The notes beneath the pieces were generated by a model. The model was not told the DNA's origin, did no database searches, and saw only the letters and a list, made by a program, of their open reading frames with translations. A stretch of DNA of 19,140 bases from Streptomyces sp. NRRL F-6676 (GTDB lineage: Bacteria > Actinomycetota > Actinomycetes > Streptomycetales > Streptomycetaceae), in contig NZ_JOHS01000083.1 of NCBI RefSeq assembly GCF_000725625.1, forward strand, positions 1 through 19,140, written 5' to 3'. Positions 1 to 18,968 of this stretch are shown here, in pieces; position 1 is the stretch's first letter; the number at the start of each line of letters is the position of its first letter. The position numbers and the translations under genes are program-made.

Positions 1-17
1 CCCACCCCCCGTGCCCC

Positions 18-665
18 CTACCCCCGCAACGCGGCGAGCCGCTCCTCGAAGGGCGTGACCTCCTCGAAGGAGTCACGTCGGGGCACCCGGCGGCCCGCCG
101 ACGCCCCCGACAGCCCAGACGGCCCCGACAGCCCCGCCATGAGCGCGCCCAGCTCCGTCGCCGCCCGCCCGATCCGCGCGTCCAGCCCCTCCGCACCCCA
201 GTCCTCCGAGGCGGCGTAGACCCCGGTGGGGACGACGACCGCCTTCAGGTAGGCGAAGAGCGGCCGCAGCGCGTGCTCCAGCACCAGGGAGTGCCGCGCG
301 GTACCGCCGGTCGCGGCGATCAGCACCGGCTTCCCGGTGAGCGCGTCCTCGTCGGTGACGCTCAGCGCGTCGAAGAACGACTTGAACAGCCCGCTGTACG
401 ACGCCGAGAACACCGGCGTGACGACGATCAGCCCGTCGGCCGCGGCGACCTCGGCGAACGCGTCCGCGAGCGCCGGCGCCGGGAACCCGTTGGTGAAGGT
501 GTGCGCGATCTCCACGGCGAGGTTGCGCAGCTCGATCACCCGGACGTCGGCCGGAGCGGGCTCGGGAGCGGTGGCGGCCGGGGCCGCGACCGCGGCCAGC
601 CGGTCGGCGAGCAGCCGGGTGGACGACGGCACGCTCAGCCCCGCGGAGACGACGACGAGCTTCAT
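18..665 (-). CDS. CE1759-type NADPH-dependent FMN reductase
   Basis: A 215-residue flavodoxin-fold reductase expected to use NAD(P)H to reduce FMN in the cytoplasm and to feed reduced flavin to the luciferase-like monooxygenase just upstream. The N-terminal beta strand leads into GLSVPSSTR (residues 9-17), the phosphate-binding loop of the NADPH-dependent FMN reductase family. PVFSASYSGLFK (84-95) is the second family signature, near the flavin ring. The ATG overlaps the TGA of the upstream gene by four bases (ATGA), so the two are translationally coupled, and an AAGGAAGGGG stretch before it serves as ribosome site. The tail after about residue 185 is Gly/Ser/Arg-rich and looks disordered. 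The pairing matches the family duo named after Corynebacterium CE1758/CE1759. The natural substrate of the pair cannot be read from the sequence. Confidence 0.9.
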   Translation of the reverse strand: MKLVVVSAGLSVPSSTRLLADRLAAVAAPAATAPEPAPADVRVIELRNLAVEIAHTFTNGFPAPALADAFAEVAAADGLIVVTPVFSASYSGLFKSFFDALSVTDEDALTGKPVLIAATGGTARHSLVLEHALRPLFAYLKAVVVPTGVYAASEDWGAEGLDARIGRAATELGALMAGLSGPSGLSGASAGRRVPRRDSFEEVTPFEERLAALRG

Positions 666-1774
666 GCGCGCGCCCCTTCCTTCTTCTGCTGCTCCTGGCC
701 GGCGGCCTTCGCGGCCACCAGCGCCGCGTGGTTCGGCGCGTCCGGCACATCCGCCGGGCGGTCCTTGGCGAACTCCCTGCGCAGCACCGGCACGACCTCC
801 TCGCCGAGCAGGTCGAGCTGCTCGAGGACGGTCTTCAGCGGCAGCCCCGCGTGGTCCATCAGGAACAGCTGGCGCTGGTAGTCGCCGGCGTACTCGCGGA
901 AGCCCAGCGTCTTCTCGATCACCTGCTGCGGCGAGCCCACGGTCAGCGGCGTCTGCTCGGTGAAGTCCTCGAGCGACGGCCCGTGCCCGTACACCGGCGC
1001 GTTGTCGAAGTACGGCCGGAACTCCCGCACCGCGTCCTGGGAGTTCCTCCGCATGAACACCTGACCGCCCAGCCCCACGATCGCCTGCTCGGCGCTCCCG
1101 TGCCCGTAGTGGGCGTACCGGCTCCGGTACAGCTCGACCATCCGCTTGGTGTGGTCGGCGGGCCAGAAGATGTTGTTGTGGAAGAAGCCGTCGCCGTAGT
1201 ACGCGGCCTGCTCGGCGATCTCCGGGGAGCGGATGGAGCCGTGCCAGACGAACGGCGGCACGCCGTCCAGCGGGCGCGGGGTGGAGGTGAAGCCCTGCAA
1301 CGGGGTGCGGAACTTCCCCTCCCAGTCGACGACGTCCTCGCGCCACAGCCGGTGCAGGAGGGCGTAGTTCTCCACCGCGAGGTTGATGCCCTGACGTATG
1401 TCCTGGCCGAACCAGGGATAGACCGGGCCGGTGTTGCCGCGCCCCATCATCAGGTCCACCCGGCCGTCGGCCAGGTGCTGGAGCATCGCGAAGTCCTCGG
1501 CGATCTTCACCGGGTCGTTGGTGGTGATCAGGGTGGTGGAGGTGGAGAGGATCAGCCGCTCGGTGCGGGCCGCGACGTAGCCGAGCATGGTCGTCGGCGA
1601 CGAGGGCACGAAGGGCGGGTTGTGGTGCTCACCGGTCGCGAAGACGTCGAGTCCGACCTCCTCCGCCTTCAGCGCGATGGCGACCATGGCCTTGATGCGC
1701 TCACGCTCGGTCGGCGTGCGCCCCGTGGTCGGGTCGGGCGTGACATCCCCGACGCTGAAAATCCCGAACTGCAT
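662..1774 (-). CDS. CE1758-type luciferase-like flavin monooxygenase
   Basis: A 370-residue LLM-class (bacterial luciferase-like, TIM-barrel) FMN-dependent monooxygenase. It is the first gene of a two-gene operon with the FMN reductase, which would supply reduced FMN. Family features include the N-terminal strand MQFGIFSVGD, GEHHNPPFVPSSP (48-60) on the flavin side of the barrel, and DGRVDLMMGRGN (103-114). The length is normal for the family, and the Lys/Gln/Ala-rich last 25 residues look like a disordered tail. The ATG follows a GGAGGG ribosome site at suitable spacing. Upstream lie a TATAGT -10-like hexamer and an inverted repeat that could bind a repressor. The oxidised substrate is unknown; close relatives are annotated only as oxidoreductases. 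Confidence 0.92.
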   Translation of the reverse strand: MQFGIFSVGDVTPDPTTGRTPTERERIKAMVAIALKAEEVGLDVFATGEHHNPPFVPSSPTTMLGYVAARTERLILSTSTTLITTNDPVKIAEDFAMLQHLADGRVDLMMGRGNTGPVYPWFGQDIRQGINLAVENYALLHRLWREDVVDWEGKFRTPLQGFTSTPRPLDGVPPFVWHGSIRSPEIAEQAAYYGDGFFHNNIFWPADHTKRMVELYRSRYAHYGHGSAEQAIVGLGGQVFMRRNSQDAVREFRPYFDNAPVYGHGPSLEDFTEQTPLTVGSPQQVIEKTLGFREYAGDYQRQLFLMDHAGLPLKTVLEQLDLLGEEVVPVLRREFAKDRPADVPDAPNHAALVAAKAAGQEQQKKEGARA

Positions 1775-1794
1775 GGCCGCTCACCCTCCGGTTT

Positions 1795-1812
1795 GTTGAC
1801 GGTTCAACTATA
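1795..1812 (-). promoter_or_regulatory. Candidate promoter and operator of the LLM/FMN reductase operon
   Basis: On the minus strand TATAGT (1812-1807) matches the TANNNT -10 consensus. The inverted repeat GTTGA-4-TCAAC (1795-1808) overlaps the expected transcription start, about 20 bases before the ribosome site. A repressor of the MarR/TetR size class at this spot would block transcription. No convincing -35 was found and no regulator gene is adjacent, so the call rests on the -10 and the symmetry only. Confidence 0.4.
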
Positions 1813-1983
1813 CCCTGCCAACGATGCCCCCGCCCCGCCTATTCCAACCGCCCCCGCGGGCCCGGCCCACCCCGCGTCCCCCCGAGCCGGGCCACCTATC
1901 CTGACGACCGGGCCCCCAGCCACCCGCCCGCACCCGCACCCCACCGCACCGCCCCCTTCCACCCACACCGCGCAGGAGCACCC

Positions 1984-2748
1984 ATGACCTCCACCGCCTC
2001 CCGCATCGCCGTCGTCACCGGCGCGAGCAGTGGGATCGGTGCCGCGACGGCCCGGCAGCTGGCCGCCGCCGGCTACCGCGTCGTCCTCACCGCCCGCCGC
2101 AAGGACCGCATCGAGGCGCTCGCCGCGGAACTGACCGCGGCCGGCCACTCCGCGACGGCGTACGCGCTGGACGTCACCGACCGCGCGGCGGTGGACGAGT
2201 TCGCCACCGCCTTCCCCACCCTCGGCGTCCTGGTCAACAACGCGGGCGGCGCCCTGGGCGCCGACCCGGTCGCCACCGGCGACCCCGAGGAGTGGCGCCG
2301 GATGTACGAGACGAACGTCCTCGGCACCCTGCACATGACCCAGGCGATGCTCCCCGCGCTCACCGCGAGCGGCGACGGCACGGTGGTCGTCGTCTCCTCC
2401 ACCGCCGGCCACGGCACGTACGAGGGCGGCGCGGGCTACGTCGCCGCCAAGCACGGTGAGCACGTGCTCGCCGAGACGCTGCGCCTGGAGATCGTCGGCA
2501 CCCCGGTCCGGGTGATCGAGGTCGCCCCCGGCATGGTGAAGACCGACGAGTTCGCCCTCACCCGCTTCGCCGGCGACGAGACGAAGGCGGCGAAGGTCTA
2601 CGAGGGCGTCGCCGAACCCCTCACCGCCGACGACGTCGCCGACACGATCACCTGGGCCGTCACCCGCCCCTCCCACGTCAACATCGACCTCCTGGTGGTC
2701 CGCCCCCGCGCCCAGGCCTCCAACACGAAGGTCCACCGCGAACGGTGA
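1984..2748 (+). CDS. Short-chain dehydrogenase/reductase, YdfG-like
   Basis: A 254-residue classical SDR with a Rossmann fold, expected to oxidise or reduce an alcohol/carbonyl with NAD(P). The cofactor loop TGASSGIG is at 12-19 and NNAG at 85-88. The catalytic tetrad is N111, S139, Y152 and K156 (YVAAK). Arg38-Arg39 after the second beta strand suggests preference for NADP(H). The C-terminal stretch ending in NIDLLVVRPRAQ resembles the YdfG group (3-hydroxy acid and serine dehydrogenases), so a small hydroxy acid is a reasonable but unproven substrate. ATG 1984 is preceded by AGGAG at good spacing. The gene is divergent from the monooxygenase operon across 209 bp, so a shared regulator is possible. 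Nothing is truncated. Confidence 0.93.
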   Translation: MTSTASRIAVVTGASSGIGAATARQLAAAGYRVVLTARRKDRIEALAAELTAAGHSATAYALDVTDRAAVDEFATAFPTLGVLVNNAGGALGADPVATGDPEEWRRMYETNVLGTLHMTQAMLPALTASGDGTVVVVSSTAGHGTYEGGAGYVAAKHGEHVLAETLRLEIVGTPVRVIEVAPGMVKTDEFALTRFAGDETKAAKVYEGVAEPLTADDVADTITWAVTRPSHVNIDLLVVRPRAQASNTKVHRER

Positions 2749-2752
2749 CGCC

Positions 2753-2766
2753 GAGCGGCGCCGCTC
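2753..2766. terminator. Palindrome after the SDR gene, possible weak terminator
   Basis: GAGCGGCGCCGCTC is a perfect 14-base palindrome four bases after the SDR stop codon. As RNA it could fold to five pairs with a GCGC loop, extended imperfectly by GTGA/TCAC outside. No U tract follows. Its position suits transcript termination, but the same sequence could be a protein-binding palindrome. Confidence 0.35.
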
Positions 2767-2849
2767 ACTCACAGGGATGAACCTCACCGATCACCGGAGC
2801 GACGCTCGAACCACCGACCTAGGCTCGCGCCACAACCTCGAACGAAGAC

Positions 2850-2886
2850 GGCCCTCGGGCCGGGGCTGCATCCCGGACCGAGGGCC
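2850..2886 (+). promoter_or_regulatory. Strong hairpin in the leader of the homing endonuclease gene
   Basis: GGCCCTCGG (2850-2858) pairs with CCGAGGGCC (2878-2886). After one G-A mismatch, CCGGG (2860-2864) pairs with CCCGG (2872-2876) around a 7-base GCTGCAT loop, giving 14 pairs in total. It ends 10 bases before the ribosome site of the LAGLIDADG gene. No U tract follows, so a standard intrinsic terminator is not clear. It could insulate the gene from SDR read-through, protect the mRNA, or limit endonuclease expression. A TAGGCT hexamer at 2820-2825 could be a -10 that places the hairpin in the 5' leader. Confidence 0.55.
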
Positions 2887-2896
2887 CGACCGCCAA

Positions 2897-2910
2897 GGAA
2901 GTGGGCTTCC
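2897..2910 (+). promoter_or_regulatory. Ribosome site within a small hairpin, decides the start at 2913
   Basis: GGAAG (2897-2901) is the only purine-rich site near the start of the LAGLIDADG gene. It can pair with CTTCC (2906-2910) around a TGGG loop, which would mask the ribosome site. GTG 2901 overlaps the site itself, so GTG 2913, about 11 bases downstream, is the more plausible start. Masking would give low translation, which fits a DNA endonuclease, but this is inferred from pairing alone. Confidence 0.4.
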
Positions 2911-2912
2911 CT

Positions 2913-3785
2913 GTGGCCGAACGCGAGCCTAACGCGCACCAATTCACCCTCGACGACGCCCTCGGCGTCGACACGACGGGTTTCATGGACCTCACGGTCC
3001 CCGAGTACGCCTACATGTTCGGCTTCTTGCAGGCGGACGGGCATGTGCATCAGGGCATGGGACAGAAGGGCCGCCTGACGGTGGAAGTGAACGTGCGGGA
3101 CATCGACATCCTGCGCGCCTTCCAGAAGCTGACCCCGTACAACAGCAGCATCAGGGAGCGGATCCGGTCGACGAACTTCGCCGCGACGCATCACTCGGCC
3201 ACCTGGAGCCTGTACTCCCTAGAAGCCAGGACCCGGATCAACGAACTCGGCATGCCCTACGGCCGTAAGTCCCTCACCATCGCGCCGCCCGGCCCGGGCT
3301 TCGCGGTCCCCGACTACCTGCGGGGGCTGCTCGACGCCGACGGGTCCGTCGGTATCACCGGGCAGGGCTACCCCTTTGTCAGCCTCACCACGGCCAGCGC
3401 CGCCATCGGCTCGTACTTCTGTTTCGCCGCGGGCAAGATCAGCGGTGCCGAGCGCTCACTCAAGCGCAACGCCCGGGACGCCGTTTTCAACATCCTCTAC
3501 GTCAAGGAAGCGGCACAGGCGCTCGGTGCCCATCTCTACTATCCGGGTTGCCTGGCCCTGGAAAGGAAAAGGGCTGCGGCCGACTCGCTGGCCGCCTGGG
3601 TTCGTCCCGTCGACATGAGGATCGCCCCCGACCGCCGCCGCTGGACTGCGCGGGAGGACCGCGTTCTGCTGCGGCTGAACGACGATGCCGCCTCGGCCAG
3701 GGAACTCGATCGCACCGAGAAGAGCTGCTACATCCGCCTCTGGCGACTGCGCACGGGCAAGGTCCCGATGCCGAGCGACAAGTGA
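2913..3785 (+). CDS. Free-standing two-motif LAGLIDADG homing endonuclease with C-terminal Myb/SANT-like domain
   Basis: A 290-residue protein with two LAGLIDADG helices: YMFGFLQADGHV (34-45, catalytic acid D42) and YLRGLLDADGSV (135-146, D143). Two motifs about 100 residues apart are typical of a single-chain enzyme that recognises a long asymmetric DNA site and makes a double-strand break. Residues about 242-283 (W244, W277, repeated Arg and Leu) resemble a Myb/SANT or HTH DNA-binding module. There are no intein splicing motifs: no N-terminal Cys/Ser block and no C-terminal His-Asn. No host exon or intron is visible around it. Both acidic residues are intact and the frame is open, so it may be active. 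It is convergent with rtcB, which contains an anomalous recoded patch. GTG 2901 is an alternative start but overlaps the ribosome site. LAGLIDADG-fold transcription factors exist, so a regulator without nuclease activity is the main alternative. Confidence 0.85.
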   Translation: MAEREPNAHQFTLDDALGVDTTGFMDLTVPEYAYMFGFLQADGHVHQGMGQKGRLTVEVNVRDIDILRAFQKLTPYNSSIRERIRSTNFAATHHSATWSLYSLEARTRINELGMPYGRKSLTIAPPGPGFAVPDYLRGLLDADGSVGITGQGYPFVSLTTASAAIGSYFCFAAGKISGAERSLKRNARDAVFNILYVKEAAQALGAHLYYPGCLALERKRAAADSLAAWVRPVDMRIAPDRRRWTAREDRVLLRLNDDAASARELDRTEKSCYIRLWRLRTGKVPMPSDK

Positions 3786-3789
3786 CCGC

Positions 3790-3820
3790 GTGAGCGGGTC
3801 CCCGCCGGGGACCCGCTCAC
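3790..3820. terminator. Bidirectional terminator between the endonuclease gene and rtcB
   Basis: GTGAGCGGGTCCCC (3790-3803) and GGGGACCCGCTCAC (3807-3820) form a perfect 14-bp stem with a three-base loop. It begins four bases after the endonuclease stop and ends just before the rtcB stop. A perfect stem at the meeting point of two convergent genes is the usual design for a shared terminator in high-GC actinobacteria, which often lack a U tract. Confidence 0.88.
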
Positions 3821-3821
3821 C

Positions 3822-5015
3822 TCAGCCCTTCACACAGACGAACTGCTTCAGCTTGGCCACGACCTCCACCAGGTCGCTCTGCTGAGCCATCACCTGGTCG
3901 ATGTTCTTGTAGGCCCCGGGGATCTCGTCGAGCACGCCGGAGTCCTTGCGGCACTCCACTCCGCGTGTCTGCTCCTCCAGGTCCCGGACAGTGAACCGGC
4001 GCTTCGCCGCGTTGCGGCTCATGCGCCGGCCCGCTCCGTGCGACGCCGAATTGAACGCCGCCTCGTTTCCGAGGCCCTTCACGATGTACGAACTGGTGCC
4101 CATCGATCCCGGAATGATCCCGTACTCGCCGGAGCCCGCCCGGATCGCGCCCTTACGGGTGACCAACAGGTCCATGCCCTCGTAGCGCTCCTCCGCCACG
4201 TAGTTGTGGTGGCAGGAGATCTCCGGCTCGAAGGTGGGCCGCGCCTTCTTGAATTCCTTGCGGACGGCTTCCTTCAGCAGCGCCATCATGATCGTCCGGT
4301 TGTACCTGGCGTACTCCTGGGCCCAGTAGAGGTCGTTGCGGTACGCGGCCATCTGCGGGGTGTCCGACACGAAGACCGCGAGGTCGCGGTCGACCAGGCC
4401 CTGATTGTGCGGAAGCTTCTGGGCCACGCCGATGTGGTGTTCCGCCAACTCCTTGCCGATGTTCCGGGAACCGGAGTGCAGCATCAGCCATACAGAATTT
4501 GCCTGATCAAGACATATCTCAATCATATGATTTCCCGATCCGAGCGTTCCCATCTGCTTCGTGGCACGTTCCTGACGGAACTTGACCGCCTCCGCGACAC
4601 CCCCGAACCGCCCCCAGAACCCCTCCCACCCCGCCGTCGCCAGGCCGTGGAAGCGGCCGGGGTCGATCGGGTCGTCGTGCATGCCGCGGCCGACCGGGAT
4701 GGACTGTTCGATCTTGGAGCGGAGGCGGGAGAGGTCGCCGGGGAGGTCGTTGGCCGTCAGGGACGTCTTCACCGCCGACATGCCGCAGCCGATGTCCACG
4801 CCCACCGCCGCCGGGCAGACCGCCCCCTGCATCGCGATGACCGAGCCGACCGTCGCACCCTTGCCGTAGTGGACGTCCGGCATGACGGCCAGGCCCTTGA
4901 TCCACGGCAGCGTCGAGACGTTGCGCAGCTGCTGCATCGCCACGTCCTCGACCCCCGCAGGGTCGGTCCACATTCGGATCGGGACCTTCGCGCCCGGTAC
5001 CTCCACGTACGACAT
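3822..5015 (-). CDS. rtcB: RNA-splicing ligase RtcB
   Basis: A 397-residue RtcB ligase, which joins RNA 2',3'-cyclic phosphate or 3'-phosphate ends to 5'-OH ends using GTP and Mn2+ in RNA repair. Active-site elements in order are DVHYGKG (47-53), GVDIGCG (72-78, metal ligands D74 and C77), GSGNH (159-163, N162 and H163), LHSGSR (179-184), SCHHN (267-271) and SHGAGR (325-330), whose H326 is the guanylated His. The family motif usually reads GNHF; here it is GNHM. ATG 5015 is preceded by GGGGA. The frame stays open about 490 bp further upstream, but that extension has no RtcB character. Codons for residues 156-175 are A/T-ending, unlike the rest of the gene (see the separate entry). There is no archease or RtcR-type regulator beside it. 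Confidence 0.95.
   Translation of the reverse strand: MSYVEVPGAKVPIRMWTDPAGVEDVAMQQLRNVSTLPWIKGLAVMPDVHYGKGATVGSVIAMQGAVCPAAVGVDIGCGMSAVKTSLTANDLPGDLSRLRSKIEQSIPVGRGMHDDPIDPGRFHGLATAGWEGFWGRFGGVAEAVKFRQERATKQMGTLGSGNHMIEICLDQANSVWLMLHSGSRNIGKELAEHHIGVAQKLPHNQGLVDRDLAVFVSDTPQMAAYRNDLYWAQEYARYNRTIMMALLKEAVRKEFKKARPTFEPEISCHHNYVAEERYEGMDLLVTRKGAIRAGSGEYGIIPGSMGTSSYIVKGLGNEAAFNSASHGAGRRMSRNAAKRRFTVRDLEEQTRGVECRKDSGVLDEIPGAYKNIDQVMAQQSDLVEVVAKLKQFVCVKG
4491..4550 (-). other. rtcB: Recoded low-GC patch inside the rtcB active-site region
   Basis: These 60 bases encode rtcB residues 156-175, including the metal-binding GSGNH. By my count the first 50 bases (4491-4540) are about 36% G+C, in a gene whose other codons nearly all end in G or C. 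Fourteen of the twenty codons end in A or T, including ATA, CTT, GTA, TCT and TGT, which Streptomyces rarely uses. The frame and the key residues are kept. The patch contains the palindrome ATCATATGAT (4522-4531). Flanking codons return quickly to normal use. This looks like selection on, or replacement of, the DNA sequence rather than the protein. See findings for a homing hypothesis. Confidence 0.85.
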
Positions 5016-5232
5016 GCCGTCCCCATTCCCCGTAAACACAACAGAAGCCGCAAAGCGCAAAAACCGTCGCCAAGGTCGTCGTACCGGACAACGGACCGGC
5101 ATCCACGGCAGCGCGTGCGATAGACATTGTCCCCAGGGGCACCTACCGCGCGGCAACCGAATAACCGCAGGGCACGCCCCGCCCCCGCCCGCCGGACCCG
5201 GCCCGGGGAACCCGACGAGAGGAGCCTGAACC

Positions 5233-6111
5233 GTGCAGCGGAAGGCGTACGTCCCGGCCGCCGTCGCGCTCCTCGCGGCGCTCCTCGCCGCGTGCACCGG
5301 CGGCTCCGGCGACGGCTCGGCCCAGGACGACAAGGCCGGCGGCTCCGCCACCTCCACCCCGGTCGCCCAGCCCGGCAGGTACAGCACCCTCTCCGACGCC
5401 TGCACCGCGCCCGACCACGACCAGCTCGAGACGCTGCTGCCCGGCCTGAAGCAGCTGACGGACGAGGAGCAGCGCGAGAAGGCGTACGACGGCACCGCGA
5501 CCCTCACCTACGACAACGACCGCCGCTCCGGCTGCCGTTGGAAGGCGGAGTCGGACTCCGCCTCGGACCAGCTGTACATCGACTTCGAGCGGGTCGTGTC
5601 GTACGACTCCTCGGTCAGCGACGACGACAGCGCGGCGCGGGTGTTCGGCGAGAAGGAGGACGCGGCGGACATCCCGGAGGGCGGTGCCTCCACCTCCGTC
5701 ACCCCGTCCCGCACGGCGTCTCCCTCGCACTCGAAGGACTCGAAGGGGACGAAGAGCTCGAAGGGGACGGAGGGGACGGAGGGCAAGGGCTCGAAGGGCG
5801 CCTCCGCCGAGGACTCCGCGTCCGGCGGCGCGGACTCCTCCGGAGGCTCCTCCTCCGACCCTGCCGCCTCCGCCTCCGCCACCGTCCAGCCGCGCGCGCT
5901 CGACGGTCTGGGCGACGAGGCCTTCCTGGACGACGAGCTGAGCCCCACCCAGCAGCGCACGGTGACTGTGGTGTTCCGCACGTCCAACGTGCTCGTGACG
6001 GTCCAGTACGAGGAGCAGCCGACGCGTACCGGCACGGTCGCGGGCAGCGCGGAAATGCAGGACAGGGCCCAGATTCTGGCGCGGCAACTGGCCGACTCCT
6101 TCGAGGGTTAG
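5233..6111 (+). CDS. DUF3558-type lipoprotein, first of a tandem pair
   Basis: A 292-residue secreted lipoprotein. The signal peptide ends in lipobox LAAC with the lipidated Cys at 21, so it is anchored on the outer face of the membrane. A folded region around C57 and C101, a likely disulfide, is followed by a Ser/Lys/Gly/Glu-rich low-complexity segment (about 165-215). A second folded part (about 218-292) is rich in beta strands. The Cys spacing and overall plan match DUF3558, a family of unknown function common in actinobacteria, and the next gene. The low-complexity segment splits the domain, which is unusual and makes the protein longer than simple members. The GTG start has a GAGGAG ribosome site. 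The next lipoprotein gene is 134 bp downstream on the same strand. Confidence 0.85.
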   Translation: MQRKAYVPAAVALLAALLAACTGGSGDGSAQDDKAGGSATSTPVAQPGRYSTLSDACTAPDHDQLETLLPGLKQLTDEEQREKAYDGTATLTYDNDRRSGCRWKAESDSASDQLYIDFERVVSYDSSVSDDDSAARVFGEKEDAADIPEGGASTSVTPSRTASPSHSKDSKGTKSSKGTEGTEGKGSKGASAEDSASGGADSSGGSSSDPAASASATVQPRALDGLGDEAFLDDELSPTQQRTVTVVFRTSNVLVTVQYEEQPTRTGTVAGSAEMQDRAQILARQLADSFEG

Positions 6112-6131
6112 CGGCCCCGCGGCGGTCGTCG

Positions 6132-6152
6132 GGGTGCGGGCAGCGCGCACCC
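6132..6152 (+). terminator. Hairpin between the two lipoprotein genes
   Basis: GGGTGCG (6132-6138) pairs with CGCACCC (6146-6152) around a 7-base loop, 20 bases after the stop of the first lipoprotein gene. No U tract follows. It could be a partial terminator ahead of a new promoter for the second gene. Confidence 0.4.
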
Positions 6153-6157
6153 GAACC

Positions 6158-6186
6158 GGAACCGCGGGCTGTTCCCACCGCGTACC
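6158..6186 (+). promoter_or_regulatory. Possible ECF-sigma promoter for the second lipoprotein gene
   Basis: GGAACC (6158-6163) is followed after 17 bases by CGTACC (6181-6186). A GGAAC -35 element is typical of ECF sigma factors that act on cell-envelope genes. The -10 match is weak, and such a short pattern arises easily by chance in this base composition. Confidence 0.25.
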
Positions 6187-6245
6187 GTGGCCCCTCGGAC
6201 CCGTCCGACCGCACGAAGCACAAAAGCGTCATGAGTGAAGGAACC

Positions 6246-7262
6246 ATGCACCGACCTGCACAGCGAGACCGTCGAGAGCATTCGCCCGCGGACGGCGCGG
6301 GGCACGAGGGGCACGGCCCGCGGGGCGCACGGCGGCCCGGCAGGCTGCTGTGGGGCGCGGCCGCCGTCGTCCCGGCGCTGCTGCTCGCCGCGGGCTGCTC
6401 CTCCGGCTCCTCGGACGACGGCGGCGACGCCAAGAAGCCGGAGTCGAGCGCGACGCCGTCGGGCTCGGCGTCGCAGTCGGCGAACGCGGTGCGCGAGGCG
6501 GCGTACGCGAAGCTGCCGGAGCCGTGTGCCGTGCTGCCGAGGAAGACCCTGGAGGACCTGGTCCCCAAGGGCGTGAAGTCGCCGAAGAAGGGCAGCTCCG
6601 ACGAGACGGACACCCGCTCGAACTGCTCCTGGGACAGCCTCGACGACAACGGGGTGAAGGGTTCGCAGTACCGCTGGCTCAACGTCGCCCTGCTGCGCTT
6701 CGACTCGGACGCCTCGCGGGGCGAGGGCGAGACGCAGGCCAAGGCCTACTACACCAAGCAGCTCGGTGACGCGCAGGCGACCGAGGGCGCCAAGAACACG
6801 AAGACGGAGCCGGTGCCGGGCACGGGCGACGAGGCGACGCTGGTGCGGTACGACCTGAAGAAGAAGGAGGGCACCTTCAAGCAGCAGACGGTCGTCGCGC
6901 GCGTGGAGAACGTGGTCGTCACGCTCGACTACAACGGCGCGGGGCTGGCCGGCGACAAGACGCCGGACGCGGACGGCCTGGTGAAGCTGGCGAAGAAGGC
7001 GGCGAAGGAGGCGGTGGCCTCGGTCACGTCGGCCAACACGGACGGCGGTTCGGGTTCGGACTCGGGTTCGGGTTCGGGTTCGGACTCGGGCGCCGATGCG
7101 TCGAAGTCACCGTCGAAGGACTCCTCCAAGGACTCCTCCAAGGACTCCGAGGACTCCAAGGACTCGGCAGACTCCAAGGACGCGAAGGAGACCAAGGCGG
7201 CGAAGGACTCGAAGTCGTCGCCCTCGGCCGGGGCCTCCCTCAAGTCGGGTGCCGACAGCTGA
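6246..7262 (+). CDS. DUF3558-type lipoprotein, second of a tandem pair
   Basis: A 338-residue lipoprotein paralogous to the gene before it. A long charged N-region (1-33) precedes a hydrophobic stretch and the lipobox AAGC with the lipidated Cys at 51. The folded domain (about 80-255) carries the C94/C127 pair seen in the first copy. The C-terminal ~75 residues are pure low complexity: a GS/DS run, then SKDS repeats, then Lys/Ala/Ser. This is the reverse of the first copy, where the low-complexity part lies inside the domain. ATG 6246 was chosen because AAGGAA lies just before it; ATG 6231 in the same frame has no ribosome site. A strong terminator follows. Function is unknown; a cell-wall or sensing role would be a guess. 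Confidence 0.83.
   Translation: MHRPAQRDRREHSPADGAGHEGHGPRGARRPGRLLWGAAAVVPALLLAAGCSSGSSDDGGDAKKPESSATPSGSASQSANAVREAAYAKLPEPCAVLPRKTLEDLVPKGVKSPKKGSSDETDTRSNCSWDSLDDNGVKGSQYRWLNVALLRFDSDASRGEGETQAKAYYTKQLGDAQATEGAKNTKTEPVPGTGDEATLVRYDLKKKEGTFKQQTVVARVENVVVTLDYNGAGLAGDKTPDADGLVKLAKKAAKEAVASVTSANTDGGSGSDSGSGSGSDSGADASKSPSKDSSKDSSKDSEDSKDSADSKDAKETKAAKDSKSSPSAGASLKSGADS
7047..7090 (+). repeat. Gly-Ser/Asp-Ser hexamer repeat in a lipoprotein gene
   Basis: GGTTCG units alternate with GACTCG units and encode a Gly-Ser/Asp-Ser linker in the second DUF3558 lipoprotein. Near-perfect repetition at the DNA level suggests slippage, so the length may vary between strains. Confidence 0.75.
7101..7185 (+). 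repeat. SKDS-type 12-bp repeats in a lipoprotein gene
   Basis: Three clear 12-bp units (about 7113-7148, Ser-Lys-Asp-Ser) are followed by decayed copies. They encode a charged, disordered tail at the C-terminus of the second DUF3558 lipoprotein, probably spanning the peptidoglycan layer. Confidence 0.7.
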
Positions 7263-7282
7263 GGTTGCCGGCGGAGTTTCGT

Positions 7283-7309
7283 GGGCCCGGTCCGGCGCGG
7301 ACCGGGCCC
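7283..7309 (+). terminator. Terminator after the lipoprotein pair
   Basis: GGGCCCGGTCCG (7283-7294) and CGGACCGGGCCC (7298-7309) form a perfect 12-bp stem with a three-base loop, followed by TT, 20 bases after the stop codon. This is a strong intrinsic-type terminator that separates the lipoproteins from the DUF2637 gene. Confidence 0.88.
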
Positions 7310-7412
7310 TTCGCGTATCGGTTCCCGGTCGCTTCCGGACCGGGCGTCCGTTCACCCGCACATGTGTGCCACTCTGTTCCGCGCAACAACACGCACAGGG
7401 AGGGGAGTCAGG

Positions 7413-8831
7413 GTGGCCGCGCCACTGAAGCTGACACGGATGCACCGGGTGCTCATCGGCGTGGTCGTCACCGGTGCCGTCATCATCGCCGGGATCGGCT
7501 TCGCGGGATCGTACGCGGCCGTGCGGGAGCTGGCGCTCAAGAAGGGCTTCGGGAACTTCAGTTACGTCTTCCCGGTCGGCATCGACGCGGGCATCTGTGT
7601 ACTGCTCGCCCTCGACCTGCTGCTGACCTGGATCCGCATACCCTTCCCGCTGCTGCGCCAGACGGCGTGGGTGCTGACCGCGGCGACGATCGCGTTCAAC
7701 GGCGCGGCGGCCTGGCCGGACCCGCTGGGCGTGGGCATGCACGCGGTGATCCCGGTGCTGTTCGTGGTGTCGGTGGAGGCGGCCCGGCACGCGGTCGGCC
7801 GGATCGCGGACATCACGGCCGACAAGCACATGGAGGGCGTGCGGCTGACCCGCTGGATGCTCTCGCCGCTGCCGACGTTCCTGCTGTGGCGGCGGATGAA
7901 GCTGTGGGAACTGCGGTCGTACGAGCAGGTGATCAAGCTGGAGCAGGAGCGGCTGGTGTACCAGGCGCGGCTGCGTTCCCGCTTCGGCCGGGCGTGGCGG
8001 CGCAAGGCGCCGGTGGAGTCGCTGATGCCGCTGCGGCTCGCCCGGTACGGGGTGCCGTTGGCGCAGACGGCGCCGTCGGGACTGGCGGCGGCGGGCATCG
8101 AGCCGGCGGTGCTGCCGCCGGTGTCGCTGGCGTCGGCTCCGGCGTCGGCTTCGGCTCCGGCTTCGGTGGAGCCGGTGCCCGGCGAGGCGTCCGCCGCCGG
8201 GGCGGCCCCGTCCGGCGGCCACCGGCCCGAGCTGGCGGGCGGCGCGGCGCGGGGCCCCGCCGGGCAGCAGGGGCCGCAGGGCTTCGAGGCGTACGAGGGC
8301 CCCGGCGGCTTCGAGGGCTACGAGGAGCAGCTGCCGCCCGACGTCCGGGACGGCCCCGGCGGCGAGCAGAGCCCGTGGTTCAGGCCGCCGCGGGACATCA
8401 ACTACCAGGGCGGTTACGACCCCTCGTACGACCCGTCGTACGACCCCACGTACGGGCCCGAGGACCAGTACGAGCAGTGGTACGAGGAGCAGCCGGCGGA
8501 GCAGTTCGAGGCGCCGGGGCCGGAGGACACGGGGAGTTTCCCGATCCCGGCGGGGCCGGAGGACACGGGGAGATTCCCCATCCCGGCGGGGCCGAACCGG
8601 ACGCGGGAGCTGGGCGAGGGCGGCGGGACGCCGGCGCCGGAGCCGGACGAGGACTCCTACTACCAGGTCTTCAAGAAGTCGATCAACGGGAGTTACCCGA
8701 CGCCGAGGGAGTTCGGGGACAACGTGGAGGCGGAGTTCGGCAGCCGGCTGCCGGGCGAGGAGGCGAAGCGCATGGTCACCCGCTTCACCAACCGCCACAC
8801 GGCGGAGCTGGAGGACGACCACATCGCGTGA
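7413..8831 (+). CDS. DUF2637 (SpdB-like) membrane protein with long repetitive cytoplasmic tail
   Basis: A 472-residue protein. Four membrane helices are visible at about 13-36, 54-74, 82-101 and 107-121, which is the DUF2637 domain. This domain is shared with Streptomyces Spd plasmid-spread proteins and found in many chromosomal proteins. A basic, probably helical region (about 130-215) follows, then an Ala/Pro/Ser-rich stretch. Next come Gly/Glu/Tyr-rich segments with YDPS repeats and two copies of GPEDTGSFPIPA. A conserved-looking C-terminal segment (about 415-472) contains an SYPTPREFGDNV motif reminiscent of DNA-binding segments in transfer-related proteins. The GTG start follows GGGAGGGGAG at good spacing. 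No transfer genes lie nearby, so a plasmid-spread role is unlikely here; function is unknown. It is convergent with lysS. Confidence 0.85.
   Translation: MAAPLKLTRMHRVLIGVVVTGAVIIAGIGFAGSYAAVRELALKKGFGNFSYVFPVGIDAGICVLLALDLLLTWIRIPFPLLRQTAWVLTAATIAFNGAAAWPDPLGVGMHAVIPVLFVVSVEAARHAVGRIADITADKHMEGVRLTRWMLSPLPTFLLWRRMKLWELRSYEQVIKLEQERLVYQARLRSRFGRAWRRKAPVESLMPLRLARYGVPLAQTAPSGLAAAGIEPAVLPPVSLASAPASASAPASVEPVPGEASAAGAAPSGGHRPELAGGAARGPAGQQGPQGFEAYEGPGGFEGYEEQLPPDVRDGPGGEQSPWFRPPRDINYQGGYDPSYDPSYDPTYGPEDQYEQWYEEQPAEQFEAPGPEDTGSFPIPAGPEDTGRFPIPAGPNRTRELGEGGGTPAPEPDEDSYYQVFKKSINGSYPTPREFGDNVEAEFGSRLPGEEAKRMVTRFTNRHTAELEDDHIA
8415..8453 (+). repeat. YDPS 12-bp repeats
   Basis: Three near-identical 12-bp units encode Tyr-Asp-Pro-Ser/Thr in the disordered tail of the DUF2637 protein. 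Short Tyr-rich repeats of this kind could mediate weak protein contacts or be phosphorylated; nothing in the sequence decides this. Confidence 0.7.
8517..8588 (+). repeat. 36-bp tandem duplication in the DUF2637 gene
   Basis: Two 36-bp units (8517-8552 and 8553-8588) differ at two positions and encode GPEDTGSFPIPA and GPEDTGRFPIPA; a third unit starts (GP) and then diverges. It is in frame and so recent that the DNA is nearly identical. Confidence 0.88.
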
Positions 8832-8836
8832 GCCGG

Positions 8837-8869
8837 CCGCGCCCACGCGGCGGAGCCGCATGGGCGCGG
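8837..8869. terminator. Terminator between the DUF2637 gene and lysS
   Basis: CCGCGCCCA (8837-8845) pairs with TGGGCGCGG (8861-8869). After one mismatch, GCGGC and GCCGC form an inner stem closed by a GGA triloop. It begins six bases after the DUF2637 stop. With lysS converging, it may act in both directions. Confidence 0.8.
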
Positions 8870-8897
8870 AACGGGGCGAAGCACCGTCCGGGGGTCA

Positions 8898-8912
8898 AGG
8901 GGCGGAGCCCCT
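8898..8912. repeat. GGGGCGGAGCCCC dispersed-type hairpin
   Basis: AGGGGC-GGA-GCCCCT is a six-pair hairpin with a GGA triloop inside a purine-rich stretch. From general knowledge, short elements of this form recur between Streptomyces genes, often near gene ends. A second hairpin with the same triloop lies 40 bases before it. It may add to termination between the convergent genes. Confidence 0.5.
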
Positions 8913-8958
8913 CGAAGGGACGGGAGGGCAGGGGCCGCAGGGACGGCGGGGGCGGAAA

Positions 8959-10692
8959 CTACTCCCCCAGCAACGTCCGCACCCGCTCCTGCCCCACCGC
9001 CAACAGCAGCGTCGGCAACCGCGGCCCCGTGTCCCGCCCCACCAACAGCTCGTACAGCAACGCGAAGAACGCCCGCTGCGCCGTCTTGATCTCCGCCGGC
9101 AACTCCTTCGGCGTGGCGTCCGCCGAGAACCCCGCCTGCACCTTCGGCACTCCGTACACCAGGTGCGTCAGCCCGTCCAACGACCAGTTCGCCTCCAGTC
9201 CGTCCAGCAGCAGCCGCACCGACTGCCGCCCCCGCTCGTCGAGCGACTTCAGCCGCTCGGCGTCGGGCTCGGTCCGGACGATCGTGCGCTGGTCGGCGGG
9301 GACGTGCGTGTTGATCCACGCCTCCGCCCGGTCGTACCGCGGCCGCGCCTCGTCCAGCGACCCCAGCGGATGCGCCGGGTCCAGCTCGGAGAGGATGCGC
9401 AGCGCCTGGTCCCGGTGCCCGGCGGTGACGTCGGCGACGGAGGCCAGCGTCCGGTACGGCAGCGGCCGCGGGGTGCGCGGCAGCTCACCGGCGGCGGTGC
9501 CCACGGCCCGGGTGTACGCGGCGACGTCCCCCGGCAGCGCGGACCCGTCGGCGACCTTCGCGGCCAGCTTGTCCCACTCGTCGTACAGCCGCTGGATCTC
9601 CTGGTCGAAGGCGATCTTGAAGGACTGGTTGGGGCGGCGGCGGGCGTAGAGCCAGCGCAGGAGCTGCGGCTCCATGATCTTCAGCGCGTCCGCCGGCGTG
9701 GGCACGCCGCCCTTCGAGGACGACATCTTGGCCATGCCGGAGATGCCGACGAAGGCGTACATCGGCCCGATCGGGCGTTCGCCGCCGAAGAGGGTGACGA
9801 TCTGGCCGCCGACCTGGAACGAGGAGCCCGGCGAGGAGTGGTCGACGCCGCTCGGCTCGAAGATCACGCCCTCGTAGGCCCAGCGCATCGGCCAGTCGAC
9901 CTTCCACACCAGCTTGCCCCGGTCGAACTCGCTGAGCCGGACGGTCTCGGTGTGCCCGCACGCCGTGCAGGTGTACGACAGCTCGGTGGTGTCGTCGTCG
10001 TACGCGGTGACCGTCGTCAGGTCCTTCTCGCAGTTGCCGCAGTACGGCTTGTACGGGAAGTAGCCGGCGCTCCCGGAGCTGCCGTCGTCCTCGGCGGCGG
10101 CGCCGGAGCCCTCGGCGGCCTCCAGCTCGGCCTCGTCCACCGGCTTCTGCTGCTGCTTCTTGGCCGGGGCCTTCTTCGTGCGGTACTGGTCGAGGATGGC
10201 GTCGATGTCGCCGCGGTGCTTCATCGCGTGCAGGATCTGCGCGCGGTAGGCGCCGGAGGTGTACTGCGCCGTCTGGCTGATGCCGTCGAACTCCACGCCG
10301 AGGTCGGCCAGCGAGGCGGTCATCGCGGCCTTGAAGTGCTCGGCCCAGTTCGGGTACGAGGATCCGCGCGGCGCCGGCACCGAGGTGAGCGGCTTGCCGA
10401 TGTGCTCGGCCCAGGACTCGTCGATGCCGGGGACGCCGGCCGGCACCTTGCGGTAGCGGTCGTAGTCGTCCCAGGAGATCAGGTGCCGGACCTCGTACCC
10501 CCGGCGGCGGATCTCGTCGGCGACCAGGTGCGGGGTCATGACCTCGCGCAGGTTGCCGAGGTGGATGGGGCCGGACGGGGAGAGTCCGGACGCGACGACG
10601 ACGGGTTTCCCGGGGGCGCGGCGCTCCGACGATGCGATGACCTCGTCCGCGAAACGGGAGACCCAGTCGGTGGTCTCGGTGCTCTGAGCCAC
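8959..10692 (-). CDS. lysS: Class I lysyl-tRNA synthetase
   Basis: A 577-residue class I LysRS, which charges tRNA-Lys in the cytoplasm. The Rossmann-fold signatures are the HIGH-type PIHLGN (42-47) and KMSSSKG (322-328). Four cysteines (C218, C221, C242, C245) form a zinc-ribbon insertion, preceded by a Lys-rich then acidic low-complexity spacer (about 172-208) that looks like a lineage-specific insertion. The C-terminal half is the helical anticodon-binding part and ends in VRTLLGE. GTG 10692 was chosen because the protein then begins AQSTETTDWV, as in Streptomyces relatives known to me, with GAGGA about ten bases before it. In-frame ATGs at 10740 and 10902 would add residues with no family character. 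The gene is divergent from argS. Bacteria more often use the unrelated class II enzyme; whether this strain also has one cannot be seen here. Confidence 0.95.
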   Translation of the reverse strand: MAQSTETTDWVSRFADEVIASSERRAPGKPVVVASGLSPSGPIHLGNLREVMTPHLVADEIRRRGYEVRHLISWDDYDRYRKVPAGVPGIDESWAEHIGKPLTSVPAPRGSSYPNWAEHFKAAMTASLADLGVEFDGISQTAQYTSGAYRAQILHAMKHRGDIDAILDQYRTKKAPAKKQQQKPVDEAELEAAEGSGAAAEDDGSSGSAGYFPYKPYCGNCEKDLTTVTAYDDDTTELSYTCTACGHTETVRLSEFDRGKLVWKVDWPMRWAYEGVIFEPSGVDHSSPGSSFQVGGQIVTLFGGERPIGPMYAFVGISGMAKMSSSKGGVPTPADALKIMEPQLLRWLYARRRPNQSFKIAFDQEIQRLYDEWDKLAAKVADGSALPGDVAAYTRAVGTAAGELPRTPRPLPYRTLASVADVTAGHRDQALRILSELDPAHPLGSLDEARPRYDRAEAWINTHVPADQRTIVRTEPDAERLKSLDERGRQSVRLLLDGLEANWSLDGLTHLVYGVPKVQAGFSADATPKELPAEIKTAQRAFFALLYELLVGRDTGPRLPTLLLAVGQERVRTLLGE

Positions 10693-10837
10693 GTTCGGCA
10701 CGTCCTCTTGATTTCTGGTCCTCTTGATGGGCGTCTCCATCTTCCCATCCCGGCGTGCGACCGGGAAAACCGCTTTACCCCCCATGGGATACTGGGCGTG
10801 CCCATCCGATCCCTCGAGGAGAACGGCAACCCTTCCT
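10693..10837. promoter_or_regulatory. Divergent promoter region of lysS and argS
   Basis: These 145 bases must hold the 5' ends of both synthetase transcripts. GATACT at 10788-10793 is a fair -10 for argS, with GAAAAC (10764-10769) 18 bases upstream as a poor -35. GATGGGC (10727-10733) and GCCCATC (10799-10805) are inverted copies flanking the centre, which would suit a factor acting on both genes. No T-box specifier or antiterminator structure was recognised. Confidence 0.4.
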
Positions 10838-12598
10838 ATGACCTCGGTCACGCCCCTCAGCGACTCCGTCCAGCAGCAGCTCGCGTCCGCCCTCTCGGCC
10901 ACCCGGCCGGAGGCCGCCGGTGCCGACCCGCTGCTGCGACGTAGTGACCGGGCGGACTACCAGGCCAACGGCATCCTCGCCCTGGCCAAGAAGGCGAAGG
11001 CCAACCCTCGGGAGCTGGCGACGGAGGTCGTCGCCCACCTCACGACCGGTGACGAGCTGATCAAGGAGGTCGAGGTCTCCGGACCCGGCTTCCTCAACAT
11101 CACCGTCGCCGACCGGGCGATCACCGCCAACCTCGCCGCCCGGCTCGCGGACGGCGAGCGCCTCGGCGTGCCGCCGAAGCGGGACGCAGGCATCACGGTC
11201 GTCGACTACGCCCAGCCGAACGTGGCCAAGGAGATGCACGTCGGCCATCTGCGGTCGGCGGTCATCGGCGACGCCCTGCGCAACATGCTCGACTTCACCG
11301 GCGAGAAGACGATCGGCCGGCACCACATCGGCGACTGGGGCACCCAGTTCGGCATGCTCATCCAGTACCTGTTCGAGCACCCCGGCGAGCTGGCCCCGGC
11401 CGACGACGTCGACGGCGAGCAGGCCATGTCGAACCTGAACCGGGTCTACAAGGCCTCGCGCGCGCTCTTCGACGCGGACGAGGAGTTCAAGGAGCGGGCC
11501 CGCAAGCGGGTCGTCGCCCTCCAGTCCGGCGACAAGGAGACGCGCGAGCTGTGGCAGCAGTTCGTGGACGAGTCGAAGGTCTACTTCTACTCCGTCTTCG
11601 ACAAGCTCGACATGGAGATCCGTGACGAGGAGATCGTCGGGGAGTCCGCGTACAACGAGGGCATGCCCGAGACCGCCCGCCTCCTGGAGGAGATGGGCGT
11701 CGCCGTCCGCTCCGAGGGCGCGCTCGTGGTGTTCTTCGACGAGATCCGCGGCAAGGACGACCAGCCGGTCCCGCTGATCGTGCAGAAGGCGGACGGCGGC
11801 TTCGGCTACGCGGCCTCCGACCTGACCGCGATCCGCAACCGCGTCCAGGACCTGCACGCCACCACGCTGCTGTACGTCGTGGACGTCCGCCAGGCGCTGC
11901 ACTTCCGGATGGTCTTCGAGACCGCCCGCCGGGCCGGCTGGCTCGGTGACGACGTCACCGCGCACAACATGGCCTACGGCACGGTGCTGGGCGCCGACGG
12001 CAAGCCGTTCAAGACGCGTGCGGGCGAGACCGTGCGCCTGGAGGACCTGCTGGACGAGGCCGTGCAGCGGGCCGCGGAGGTCGTACGGGAGAAGGCGCGG
12101 GACCTCACCGAGGACGAGATCCAGGAGCGGGCGGCGCAGGTCGGCATCGGCGCCGTGAAGTACGCGGACCTGTCGACGTCGGCGAGCCGCGACTACAAGT
12201 TCGACCTGGACCAGATGGTCTCGCTCAACGGCGACACCAGCGTCTACCTCCAGTACGCCTACGCCCGGATCCGGTCCATCCTCCGCAAGGCCGGCGAGGT
12301 CCGCCCCGCCGCCCACCCGGAGCTGGTGCTGCACGAGGCGGAGCGCGCGCTGGGCCTGCACCTGGACGCGTTCGGGGACACGGTCCTGGAGGCGGCCGCG
12401 GAGTACGCCCCGCACAAGGTGGCCGCGTATCTGTACCAGGCGGCGTCGCTGTACACGGCGTTCTACGACAAGTGCCCGGTGCTGAAGGCCCAGTCGCCGG
12501 AGCAGGTGGAGAACCGGCTCTTCCTGTGCGAGGTCACGGCGCGCACGCTGCACCGGGGCATGGCGCTGCTCGGCATCAGGACGCCCGAGCGGCTCTGA
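10838..12598 (+). CDS. argS: Arginyl-tRNA synthetase
   Basis: A 586-residue class I ArgRS, which charges tRNA-Arg. The N-terminal additional domain (about 1-110) is followed by the HIGH motif HVGH (134-137) within [16 protein letters not shown]. The KMSKS motif is degenerate (GKPFKTR, 388-394), as is normal in many ArgRS. A C-terminal DALR-type anticodon-binding domain (about 460-586) ends in RTPERL. The length is normal. ATG 10838 gives the expected N-terminus, but the only GGAG lies about 16 bases upstream, so the ribosome site is weak. The gene is divergent from lysS. A stem-loop terminator follows. The gene is essential and ordinary. Confidence 0.96.
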
Positions 12599-12639
12599 GG
12601 GTCACCGGGATTCAGGGACTCAGGGCGAACTCAGGGAGA

Positions 12640-12667
12640 GGGCGGCATCGCGACGGCGGTGCCGCCC
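12640..12667 (+). terminator. Terminator after argS
   Basis: GGGCGGCA (12640-12647) pairs with TGCCGCCC (12660-12667) around a 12-base loop that itself contains TCGCGA. It is followed by CTTTC, 41 bases after the argS stop. Confidence 0.72.
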
Positions 12668-12783
12668 CTTTCGGTTGCGCGCGCGAGTACGGTCCCGGCC
12701 GTCCGCGCAAGCGGTTCGGGGACGAACAACCCGGGAGAGTTACACAGCTCTTGTTCTCTGCATACGAACGCCGCCGGGGGTCG

Positions 12784-12789
12784 TAGGCT
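12784..12789 (+). promoter_or_regulatory. -10 element that would give a leaderless kinase-like transcript
   Basis: TAGGCT fits TANNNT and ends seven bases before ATG 12797. Transcription would then begin at or next to the start codon. This fits the absence of a clear ribosome site before that ATG. No good -35 was found. Leaderless genes are common in Streptomyces. Confidence 0.45.
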
Positions 12790-12796
12790 GCCGCGC

Positions 12797-13729: not shown

Positions 13730-13817
13730 CCGACGGCCGGTGGGGAACCGCGCGAGCAACCACGACGCACCCGCCACACCCCCAGAAGCCCCCGAGCCAG
13801 AACGCGCCGTACCGGCC

Positions 13818-15257: not shown

Positions 15258-15273
15258 CGTTTCTCCCTTTCCC

Positions 15274-15288
15274 CGCGTCCCGGACGCG
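15274..15288. promoter_or_regulatory. Palindromic candidate operator before the membrane HTH gene
   Basis: CGCGTCC-C-GGACGCG is a perfect 7+1+7 palindrome 17 bases upstream of the HTH gene start, between it and the divergent lipoprotein gene. Its size and symmetry suit a dimeric XRE regulator and so autoregulation. A hairpin in the leader is not possible with a one-base loop unless inner pairs open. No second copy was seen in the 216-bp gap. Confidence 0.4.
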
Positions 15289-15473
15289 CATTCCAGCTGG
15301 TTGCCATTTCCCCAGGTCAGGGCCGTTCTCAGCGTTCCATTGTCCCTCATCCCCCGGCGGCTGTGGCGACTGGGACGACTGCTGACCCAAGCTGTGGTCA
15401 TCCAAGCACGCCGCTCCCGGCAACCGGTCGAGTGGCACCCCCCATTCCCCACTTCTCCCCAAGGAGTTCAGCC

Positions 15474-16262: not shown

Positions 16263-16333
16263 GCGCTCTGACGTACCGAGCGCTCTGACGTACTGAGCGC
16301 TCTAACGTACTGAGCAACTCTGACGTACTGAGG
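16255..16333 (+). repeat. 17-bp tandem repeat across the DUF4232 stop codon
   Basis: Units begin at 16255, 16272, 16289, 16306 (18 bases) and 16324 (partial). The consensus is CGTACTGAGCGCTCTGA, with one or two changes per copy. Each full unit except the fourth contains the palindrome GAGCGCTC. The first unit supplies the final Tyr codon and TGA of the lipoprotein, so the array looks like a slippage expansion of the gene end. It lies just before the terminator. Confidence 0.93.
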
Positions 16334-16346
16334 CGCAGCCCCGCAC

Positions 16347-16381
16347 AGGCGCGGCCGTCCCGAAGGGGACGGACCGCGCCT
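16347..16381. terminator. Bidirectional terminator between the DUF4232 gene and hemB
   Basis: AGGCGCGG (16347-16354) and CCGCGCCT (16374-16381) form the outer stem. CCGTCCC (16355-16361) and GGGACGG (16366-16372) form the inner stem, with one bulged A and a GAAG loop. This gives 15 pairs, placed between two convergent genes. Confidence 0.88.
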
Positions 16382-18958: not shown

Positions 18959-18968
18959 GTCTCCGCCG

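Follow-up and report, generated by a model that had tools for sequence, protein, structure and literature searches.

We analysed a 19,140-nucleotide stretch of DNA from Streptomyces sp. NRRL F-6676 (contig NZ_JOHS01000083.1, positions 1 to 19,140; hereafter the window), in which a LAGLIDADG homing endonuclease gene (HEG; 2901-3785) lies next to rtcB, an RNA ligase gene that carries a recoded patch of codons in its active site. Comparison across genomes indicates, with a probability that we put at about 0.83, that this HEG is a chromosomal free-standing homing endonuclease gene spreading by intronless homing. Lying outside any intron or intein, the HEG presumably neighbours the gene that it targets, rtcB. 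We propose that when HEG-bearing DNA enters a HEG-free cell, the enzyme would cut rtcB near codons 161/162, and that repair from the HEG-bearing homologue would copy the cut site, then the rtcB 3′ half and then the HEG, ending in homology beyond, in an SDR oxidoreductase gene. The carrier's own rtcB site would be spared because its patch differs; carriers of the phage T4 Seg and Mob endonucleases also have a diverged target site. As sequence comparison can judge it, the proposal is strongly supported by the family to which the HEG belongs, the equivalence of the site to an intron insertion point, patchy presence, a block with borders at the patch and the HEG, empty sites and scars.

In the window, rtcB occupies 3822-5015 of the reverse strand, encodes 397 amino acids (Pfam RtcB, E 6e-124) and is the single match of its family in the genome. 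The patch, or target-site region (4491-4550, reverse strand), covers codons 156-175, all codon numbers here being those of the window rtcB. The initial annotation had counted 14 A/T-ending codons among these 20 in an otherwise G/C-ending gene, and our recount agrees (a fraction of 0.07 in the remainder of the gene). It had also stated that the frame and N162/H163, which we take to be metal ligands, are intact and that the usual Phe of GNHF is Met; the translation, GTLGSGNHMIEICLDQANSV, bears this out (F164 to M, giving GNHM), and Phe stands at 164 in 84 of 90 HEG-free Streptomyces rtcB genes. The complete two-motif LAGLIDADG gene that it saw converging on rtcB is present as the forward-strand open reading frame (ORF) 2901-3785, which matches Pfam LAGLIDADG_3 above cut-off, lies about 700 bp from the patch and leaves 36 bp between its end and the rtcB stop; a GTG at 2913, aligned with the start of relatives, is a possible alternative start. 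Motif 1, YAYMFGFLQADG (3006-3041, forward strand; core YMFGFLQADG), holds D46, and motif 2, DYLRGLLDADG (3312-3344, forward strand; core YLRGLLDADG), holds D147. Locus L004 and genome G079 (Streptomyces) likewise have this HEG and rtcB.

The HEG endonuclease family and the phage intron site

The HEG product is a member of the LAGLIDADG family. A fold test assigns it the LAGLIDADG fold, and it resembles PI-PfuI, I-Tsp061I and I-DmoI, which have known structures and 12-18% identity to it, in fold and in its two catalytic motifs; it differs from them in an extra C-terminal helical part. This three-helix part (3650-3780), with a WT..ED pattern, presumably recalls Myb/SANT-like helix-turn-helix domains, and a phage relative of the HEG gives a weak match to sigma-region-4. 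The catalytic acids D46 and D147 are kept in 65 of 65 HEG proteins, and dN/dS has a median of 0.20 over 87 overlapping pairs.

A link between the HEG and the patch comes from Bacillus phages BSP36 and 278BB001, in which relatives of the HEG product (43-44% identity, 256 amino acids) are encoded between two halves of rtcB, inside a group I intron (RF00028, E 9e-17). Exon 1 of the phage gene ends GTLGGG and exon 2 starts NHFIEL, a junction that corresponds to codons 161/162 of the window rtcB (G161/N162; 4530-4535, reverse strand) and falls inside the patch. Viral locus L277 shows both sides of this junction, L268 its left side and L279 its right side; by Rfam, L277 has the intron, and L279 gave no match. 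According to passages of PMC2988022, intron endonucleases have their cleavage sites no more than 25 bp from the insertion site, so the target of the phage intron branch is expected inside the patch. By analogy, the Streptomyces enzyme may have kept this target, and the region of G161/N162 is its candidate cleavage region. The endonucleases of BSP36 and 278BB001 are thus homologous to the HEG product and share its presumed target gene and site; their genes lie within an intron, whereas the Streptomyces HEG lies beyond the rtcB stop without one. Indeed, the window rtcB is uninterrupted over 397 codons, the HEG is a separate ORF past its stop, and Rfam reported no group I intron at gathering score in 1900-5300; the HEG is not a group I intron-encoded endonuclease.

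Among 15 viral loci with relatives of at least 33% identity (L271-L285), rtcB is split by the HEG in five (L277, L279, L280, L282 and L284, the last on a contig with the left part only), adjacent to it in nine and absent within 4 kb in one (L276); L272 resembles a repeat of L271, and L280 one of L279. Five more distant viral relatives (25-27%) have no rtcB nearby, and on a Jeotgalibacillus plasmid rtcB is followed by a free-standing HEG relative with an in-frame stop. Individual viral loci show further arrangements. On the contig of L277 (3186-5462) the HEG runs opposite to rtcB and to the group I intron that rtcB contains; at L282 (3520-5618) the HEG interrupts rtcB at about codons 114-124, not at 161/162, with no intron at the Rfam gathering score; and in a Staphylococcus phage (L267, 3049-5693) a distant relative (26%) is surrounded by short genes whose annotations are RecA-like and UvsX-like pieces. 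P0002 gave no pattern match in IMG/VR.

In bacteria the HEG was found at 54 GTDB loci, every one titled Streptomyces, and at 52 of them it converges on rtcB across a gap of 10-167 bp; the remaining two (L013 and L051) have the HEG without rtcB, abutting the region upstream of rtcB. HEG matches, fragments included, occur in 45 of 295 Streptomyces genomes, and rtcB matches in 285 of 295. Across the Streptomycetaceae 11 of 101 genomes have a HEG match; six of the seven family matches outside Streptomyces adjoin rtcB, and the seventh (L255) lacks it and is probably the same locus. A phylum-level search matched 2 of 149 genomes, both Streptomyces, and a profile search of the class matched 8 of 296, three of them outside the family (G532, G537 and G692); in G532 the HEG converges on rtcB. 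These counts, with the intron-borne phage relatives at the same site, support the reading that the family is largely tied to rtcB and, to judge from its phage members, aimed at the patch site. Stretches with a HEG and no rtcB ORF lie at L013 (6843-7000), L051 (6840-6900) and L255 (1300-1400), the last with only weak traces of the rtcB region. HEG relatives of 48-51% identity were seen in another actinobacterial family (L302, 7000-7770; L303, 6307-7101), with no rtcB within 6 kb. One genome without a HEG match has an rtcB with a single in-frame TAG (G146:C38:6257-7447).

Linkage of the HEG to the patch and the rtcB 3′ half

We compared 193 loci with rtcB, which gave 168 distinct genes: 67 with the HEG (carriers), 90 HEG-free and 11 that adjoin HEG fragments and were excluded from carrier and HEG-free counts. 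The HEG-free genes came from 80 places among the matches listed (two with HEG fragments) and from 12 of 30 loci given by the same search; the matches were headed by the rtcB genes most similar to that of the window, and we therefore also worked with a subset of carriers, the 45 of 67 that fall within the identity range of the HEG-free genes. Synonymous-codon entropy in 20-codon windows is highest at codons 156-175 in the 67 carriers and, separately, in the 90 HEG-free genes, confirming that the patch signal exceeds chance. A peak at the same 20 codons in both groups points to diversification and not to a conserved element, and A/T-ending codons are its expected outcome since rtcB is so rich in GC that a synonymous departure from the preferred codon would usually end in A or T. 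The A/T-ending positions vary between strains, and in close pairs the diverged stretch is broader than the patch, at about codons 141-180. The fraction of A/T-ending codons (AT3) in the patch is 0.371 in carriers and 0.297 in HEG-free genes (p 3e-4), against whole-gene values of 0.11 and 0.07. Patch differences among HEG-free strains are largely synonymous; carriers have residue changes as well, departing from F164 in 45 of 67 genes (6 of 90 HEG-free), from C168 in 24 (none of 90) and from M178 in 22 (1 of 90), and these three changes mark carriers better than A/T-ending codons do. A FastTree phylogeny of rtcB without the patch has 30 changes of HEG state and yields 19 independent pairs on well-supported branches, among which high AT3 falls on the carrier side 8.4 times against 1.4 (median p 0.039). 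As part of the best explanation, the patch is very probably a target site under recurrent diversification across the Streptomycetaceae.

A break at the patch that is repaired from a carrier predicts linkage of HEG state to the patch and the rtcB 3′ half and not to the flanks. On FastTree phylogenies of the 116 strains with a full SDR gene (49 carriers), HEG state changes 33 times on the tree of the rtcB 5′ half, 12 times on that of codons 141-185, 18 times on that of each 420-nucleotide piece of the 3′ half, and 34 and 31 times on those of the SDR pieces; shuffled labels gave 37-38 changes on the four trees tried (37.5 for codons 141-185). Codon usage follows the same borders. With carriers in the same identity range (106 of the 116 strains after the cut for SDR comparisons, 39 carriers and 67 HEG-free), AT3 in carriers and HEG-free strains does not differ in the 5′ half (0.077 and 0.067) or in SDR (0.029 and 0.030) and is 0.093 against 0.048 in the 3′ half (p 1e-9). 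A twofold content of A/T-ending codons was also noted by itself in the carriers' 3′ half at window 3825-4463 and in relatives.

Most close pairs of strains that differ in HEG state have their excess divergence in the same block and none on either outer side. Pairs matched on both halves of rtcB had no 3′ excess. Because a replaced 3′ half goes unnoticed when both halves are matched, we re-matched pairs on the 5′ half or SDR alone. Patch distances in pairs matched on the 5′ half (distance below 0.05) are 0.335 for eight pairs that differ in HEG state and 0.071 for six HEG-free pairs; the corresponding values are 0.107 and 0.028 for the 3′ half, and 0.028 and 0.031 for SDR. Among disjoint pairs with background below 0.06, the median ratio of 3′-half distance to background is 2.21 in eight pairs differing in HEG state and 0.96 in eleven HEG-free pairs (p 0.002). 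This excess persists at three cut-offs (p 0.002, 0.008 and 0.0003), and with the cut at 0.10, 22 of 24 pairs differing in state and 8 of 21 HEG-free pairs have a 3′-half distance above background. At matched background, patch distance in pairs differing in state is about twice that in HEG-free pairs. HEG distance is correlated with 3′-half distance (partial Mantel r 0.28, p 0.003). Overall, HEG state goes with the patch and the rtcB 3′ half and is nearly independent of both outer sides. The comparison supports exchange of a block that reaches from the patch to the HEG, with codons 185-397 (3825-4463, reverse strand) as the putative co-conversion tract between cut site and HEG: this stretch has both the excess divergence and the linkage to HEG state, and its flanks have neither. 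Co-conversion is thereby suggested as a comparative footprint only, one that has exceptions.

Sites without the HEG have the form expected of empty sites. In the 77 of 90 HEG-free strains in which the SDR gene was found, the gap between the rtcB stop and SDR does not exceed 353 bp in 47 and is as short as 10-40 bp in 13. SDR was also found in 46 intact carriers (of 65), none of which has a gap below 956 bp. Together with HEG matches in only some Streptomyces genomes, these short gaps establish patchy presence and empty sites. The conserved 5′ flank of the HEG (2768-2918, forward strand; delimited in a 65-locus alignment), which appears to be carried along with the gene, has left remnants in HEG-free L165 (E 9e-32) and L128 (E 2e-12), with weak ones in L091 and L114. 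In the rtcB 3′ flank of L165, the HEG 5′ flank and first codons are kept, and an ORF that by eye resembles a serine recombinase replaces the rest of the gene; apparently another mobile gene inserted into the HEG.

Contrary evidence and alternative explanations

Several results weigh against intronless homing as proposed here. Patch AT3 is at least 0.30 in 45 of 90 HEG-free genes, and the A/T-ending patch is missing from carriers L039, L042, L073 and L076 and, outside the genus, from L253 (0.09). In the independent pairs, any of the three residue changes goes in the expected direction (5.4 against 0.3) with a median p of 0.0625, few pairs being informative. HEG distance is not associated with patch distance (partial Mantel r 0.06, p 0.16), and HEGs that are 90% identical sometimes lie beside very different patches and 3′ halves. 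In some close pairs the patch has changed and the 3′ half has not (L015/L118, L020/L182 and L022/L171, the last with a sharply bounded tract of about 120 bp), so block exchange is not always whole. The HEGs of G537 and G692, actinobacteria of another family, have no rtcB within 6 kb. Recent donors of the carriers' 3′ halves were not found beyond near relatives: the nearest 3′-half neighbour lies at less than half of the background distance for 3 of 49 carriers (two of which are one near-identical pair) and for 13 of 67 HEG-free strains. Counts of state changes do not separate gain from loss, and HEG similarity partly tracks host relatedness, so that much of the distribution may be old inheritance followed by losses.

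These results reshape what the initial annotation had expected of the patch. Its low-GC patch restricted to HEG carriers does not hold, given the patch means above, the HEG-free genes at 0.30 or more and the 4 of 67 carriers at 0.10 or less; in part, this fulfils a refuting condition that the annotation had set for itself. A normal GC-rich patch in HEG-free strains is found in part, in the 13 of 90 genes at 0.10 or less. The patch as a carrier-only immune allele is ruled out by its presence in HEG-free strains and absence from some carriers, and the idea of one cleavage-immune allele is contradicted by L029 and L032, whose HEGs are 90% identical and whose patches differ by 39%. Of the suggestion that the patch travels with the HEG by gene conversion, the part that stands is that HEG state tracks the patch and that the block appears to be exchanged; strict co-travel by distance is ruled out by the Mantel result.

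One alternative is that homing no longer takes place: the HEG would merely be passed on by descent or lost, and the block would be an old polymorphism of two haplotypes that ordinary recombination has reshuffled. Partial tracking of host distance, the missing recent donors and the HEG fragments beside 11 of 168 distinct rtcB genes all fit it; ordinary recombination gives no reason for borders at the patch and the HEG, with the pieces just outside near random for HEG state, and the HEGs are mostly intact with dN/dS near 0.2. We consider it unlikely.

Less likely still, and by a clear step, is that the patch is a conserved functional element of Streptomycetaceae rtcB, for example an RNA structure or a regulatory site within the gene, and has nothing to do with the HEG. 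Its presence at identical codons in many HEG-free Streptomyces would suit such an element, but the patch is the most variable synonymous stretch of rtcB, has no RNA family match in Rfam, is tracked by HEG state and has about double the divergence in pairs that differ in that state. In an outgroup of 19 rtcB genes of 58-69% identity from actinobacteria outside the Streptomycetaceae, patch AT3 is at most 0.23 in 18, one of them raised (L244, 0.23 against 0.06); the exception, L242 (0.41 against 0.25), comes from a genome with a convergent HEG, HEG presence having been checked in part of the 19 genomes. Genes below 58% identity were excluded as other RtcB subfamilies (for example, L204, 0.32 against 0.15). 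A/T-ending recoding of the patch is thus nearly confined to the Streptomycetaceae.

WhiA proteins have a LAGLIDADG domain without the nuclease acids, and the HEG product could in principle act like WhiA, binding DNA to regulate rtcB by means of a LAGLIDADG fold that has lost its nuclease activity; the retained catalytic acids and the lack of a WhiA Pfam match for P0002 at E 1 make this highly implausible. A small conversion tract imported from low-GC DNA, unrelated to the HEG, could explain the sharp tract in L022/L171, but a single import does not account for A/T-ending positions that vary from strain to strain or for a patch tracked by HEG state, and it is the least credible explanation of all.

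Known homing systems and flanking features

Intronless homing is described for phages in passages of PMC2988022 and PMC3984707 and suggested for Haloferax in those of PMC5867893. The T4 endonucleases SegF, SegG and MobE (PMC2988022, in the passages available) resemble the Streptomyces HEG in being encoded by free-standing genes, in cutting a neighbouring gene hundreds of base pairs away, as we presume for Streptomyces, and in co-conversion of the DNA between; they are GIY-YIG or HNH enzymes of phages, whereas the HEG is a LAGLIDADG gene on a bacterial chromosome with a footprint across a host family. The cyanophage endonuclease F-CphI (compare PMC3984707 and PMC6083498) is likewise a free-standing enzyme directed at the intron insertion site of a neighbouring gene, psbA; it belongs to another enzyme family, whereas in the rtcB case the intron-borne and free-standing forms are clearly related (43%). 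The free-standing LAGLIDADG genes of Haloferax glycosylation islands, for which gene conversion has been suggested (passages of PMC5867893), are also chromosomal genes of cells with homing proposed; that case is archaeal, and the same passages contain no target site or tract. Among the matches listed in literature searches, no paper dealt with an intronless homing cycle at a bacterial chromosomal gene or with an endonuclease at Streptomyces rtcB.

We think it probable, with less assurance than for the window HEG itself, that a LAGLIDADG-driven intronless homing cycle has run on bacterial chromosomes across the Streptomycetaceae, that one nuclease lineage, largely bound to rtcB, has alternated between an intron-borne form (group I, in phages) and a free-standing form (in phages and in bacteria), and that in HEG-free cells the active-site codons of a conserved enzyme preserve a visible, mostly synonymous trace of how the gene evaded cutting. 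If true, homing, target escape and loss could be measured in bacteria in a natural setting, where sequenced carriers, empty sites, scars and target alleles are all numerous. Intron-borne and free-standing forms with a common target would bear on the origin of mobile introns, and the family would supply natural meganucleases in large numbers, together with the target variants that go with them.

Around the HEG, a stem-loop seen by eye between the convergent stops (3790-3820, no strand assigned) is a possible shared terminator; it is absent from the output of a promoter and terminator scan, which gave one weak site. The first gene past the HEG, named by eye as the SDR oxidoreductase gene (1984-2748, forward strand), is the putative outer border of the mobile block. 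Window positions 2729-2912 give a divergent match to the scr4677 small RNA and leader family (RF02673, 44.6 bits against a cut-off of 41) that overlaps the HEG 5′ flank, and matches at the same flank were found in two of 11 further loci tried (L002, 5812-6009; L165, 3197-3392). In S. coelicolor, passages of PMC3896431 describe scr4677 as a leader and antisense RNA adjoining a regulator gene. The family was matched in 243 of 295 Streptomyces genomes and is therefore not HEG-specific; the HEG seems to use a host-type leader.
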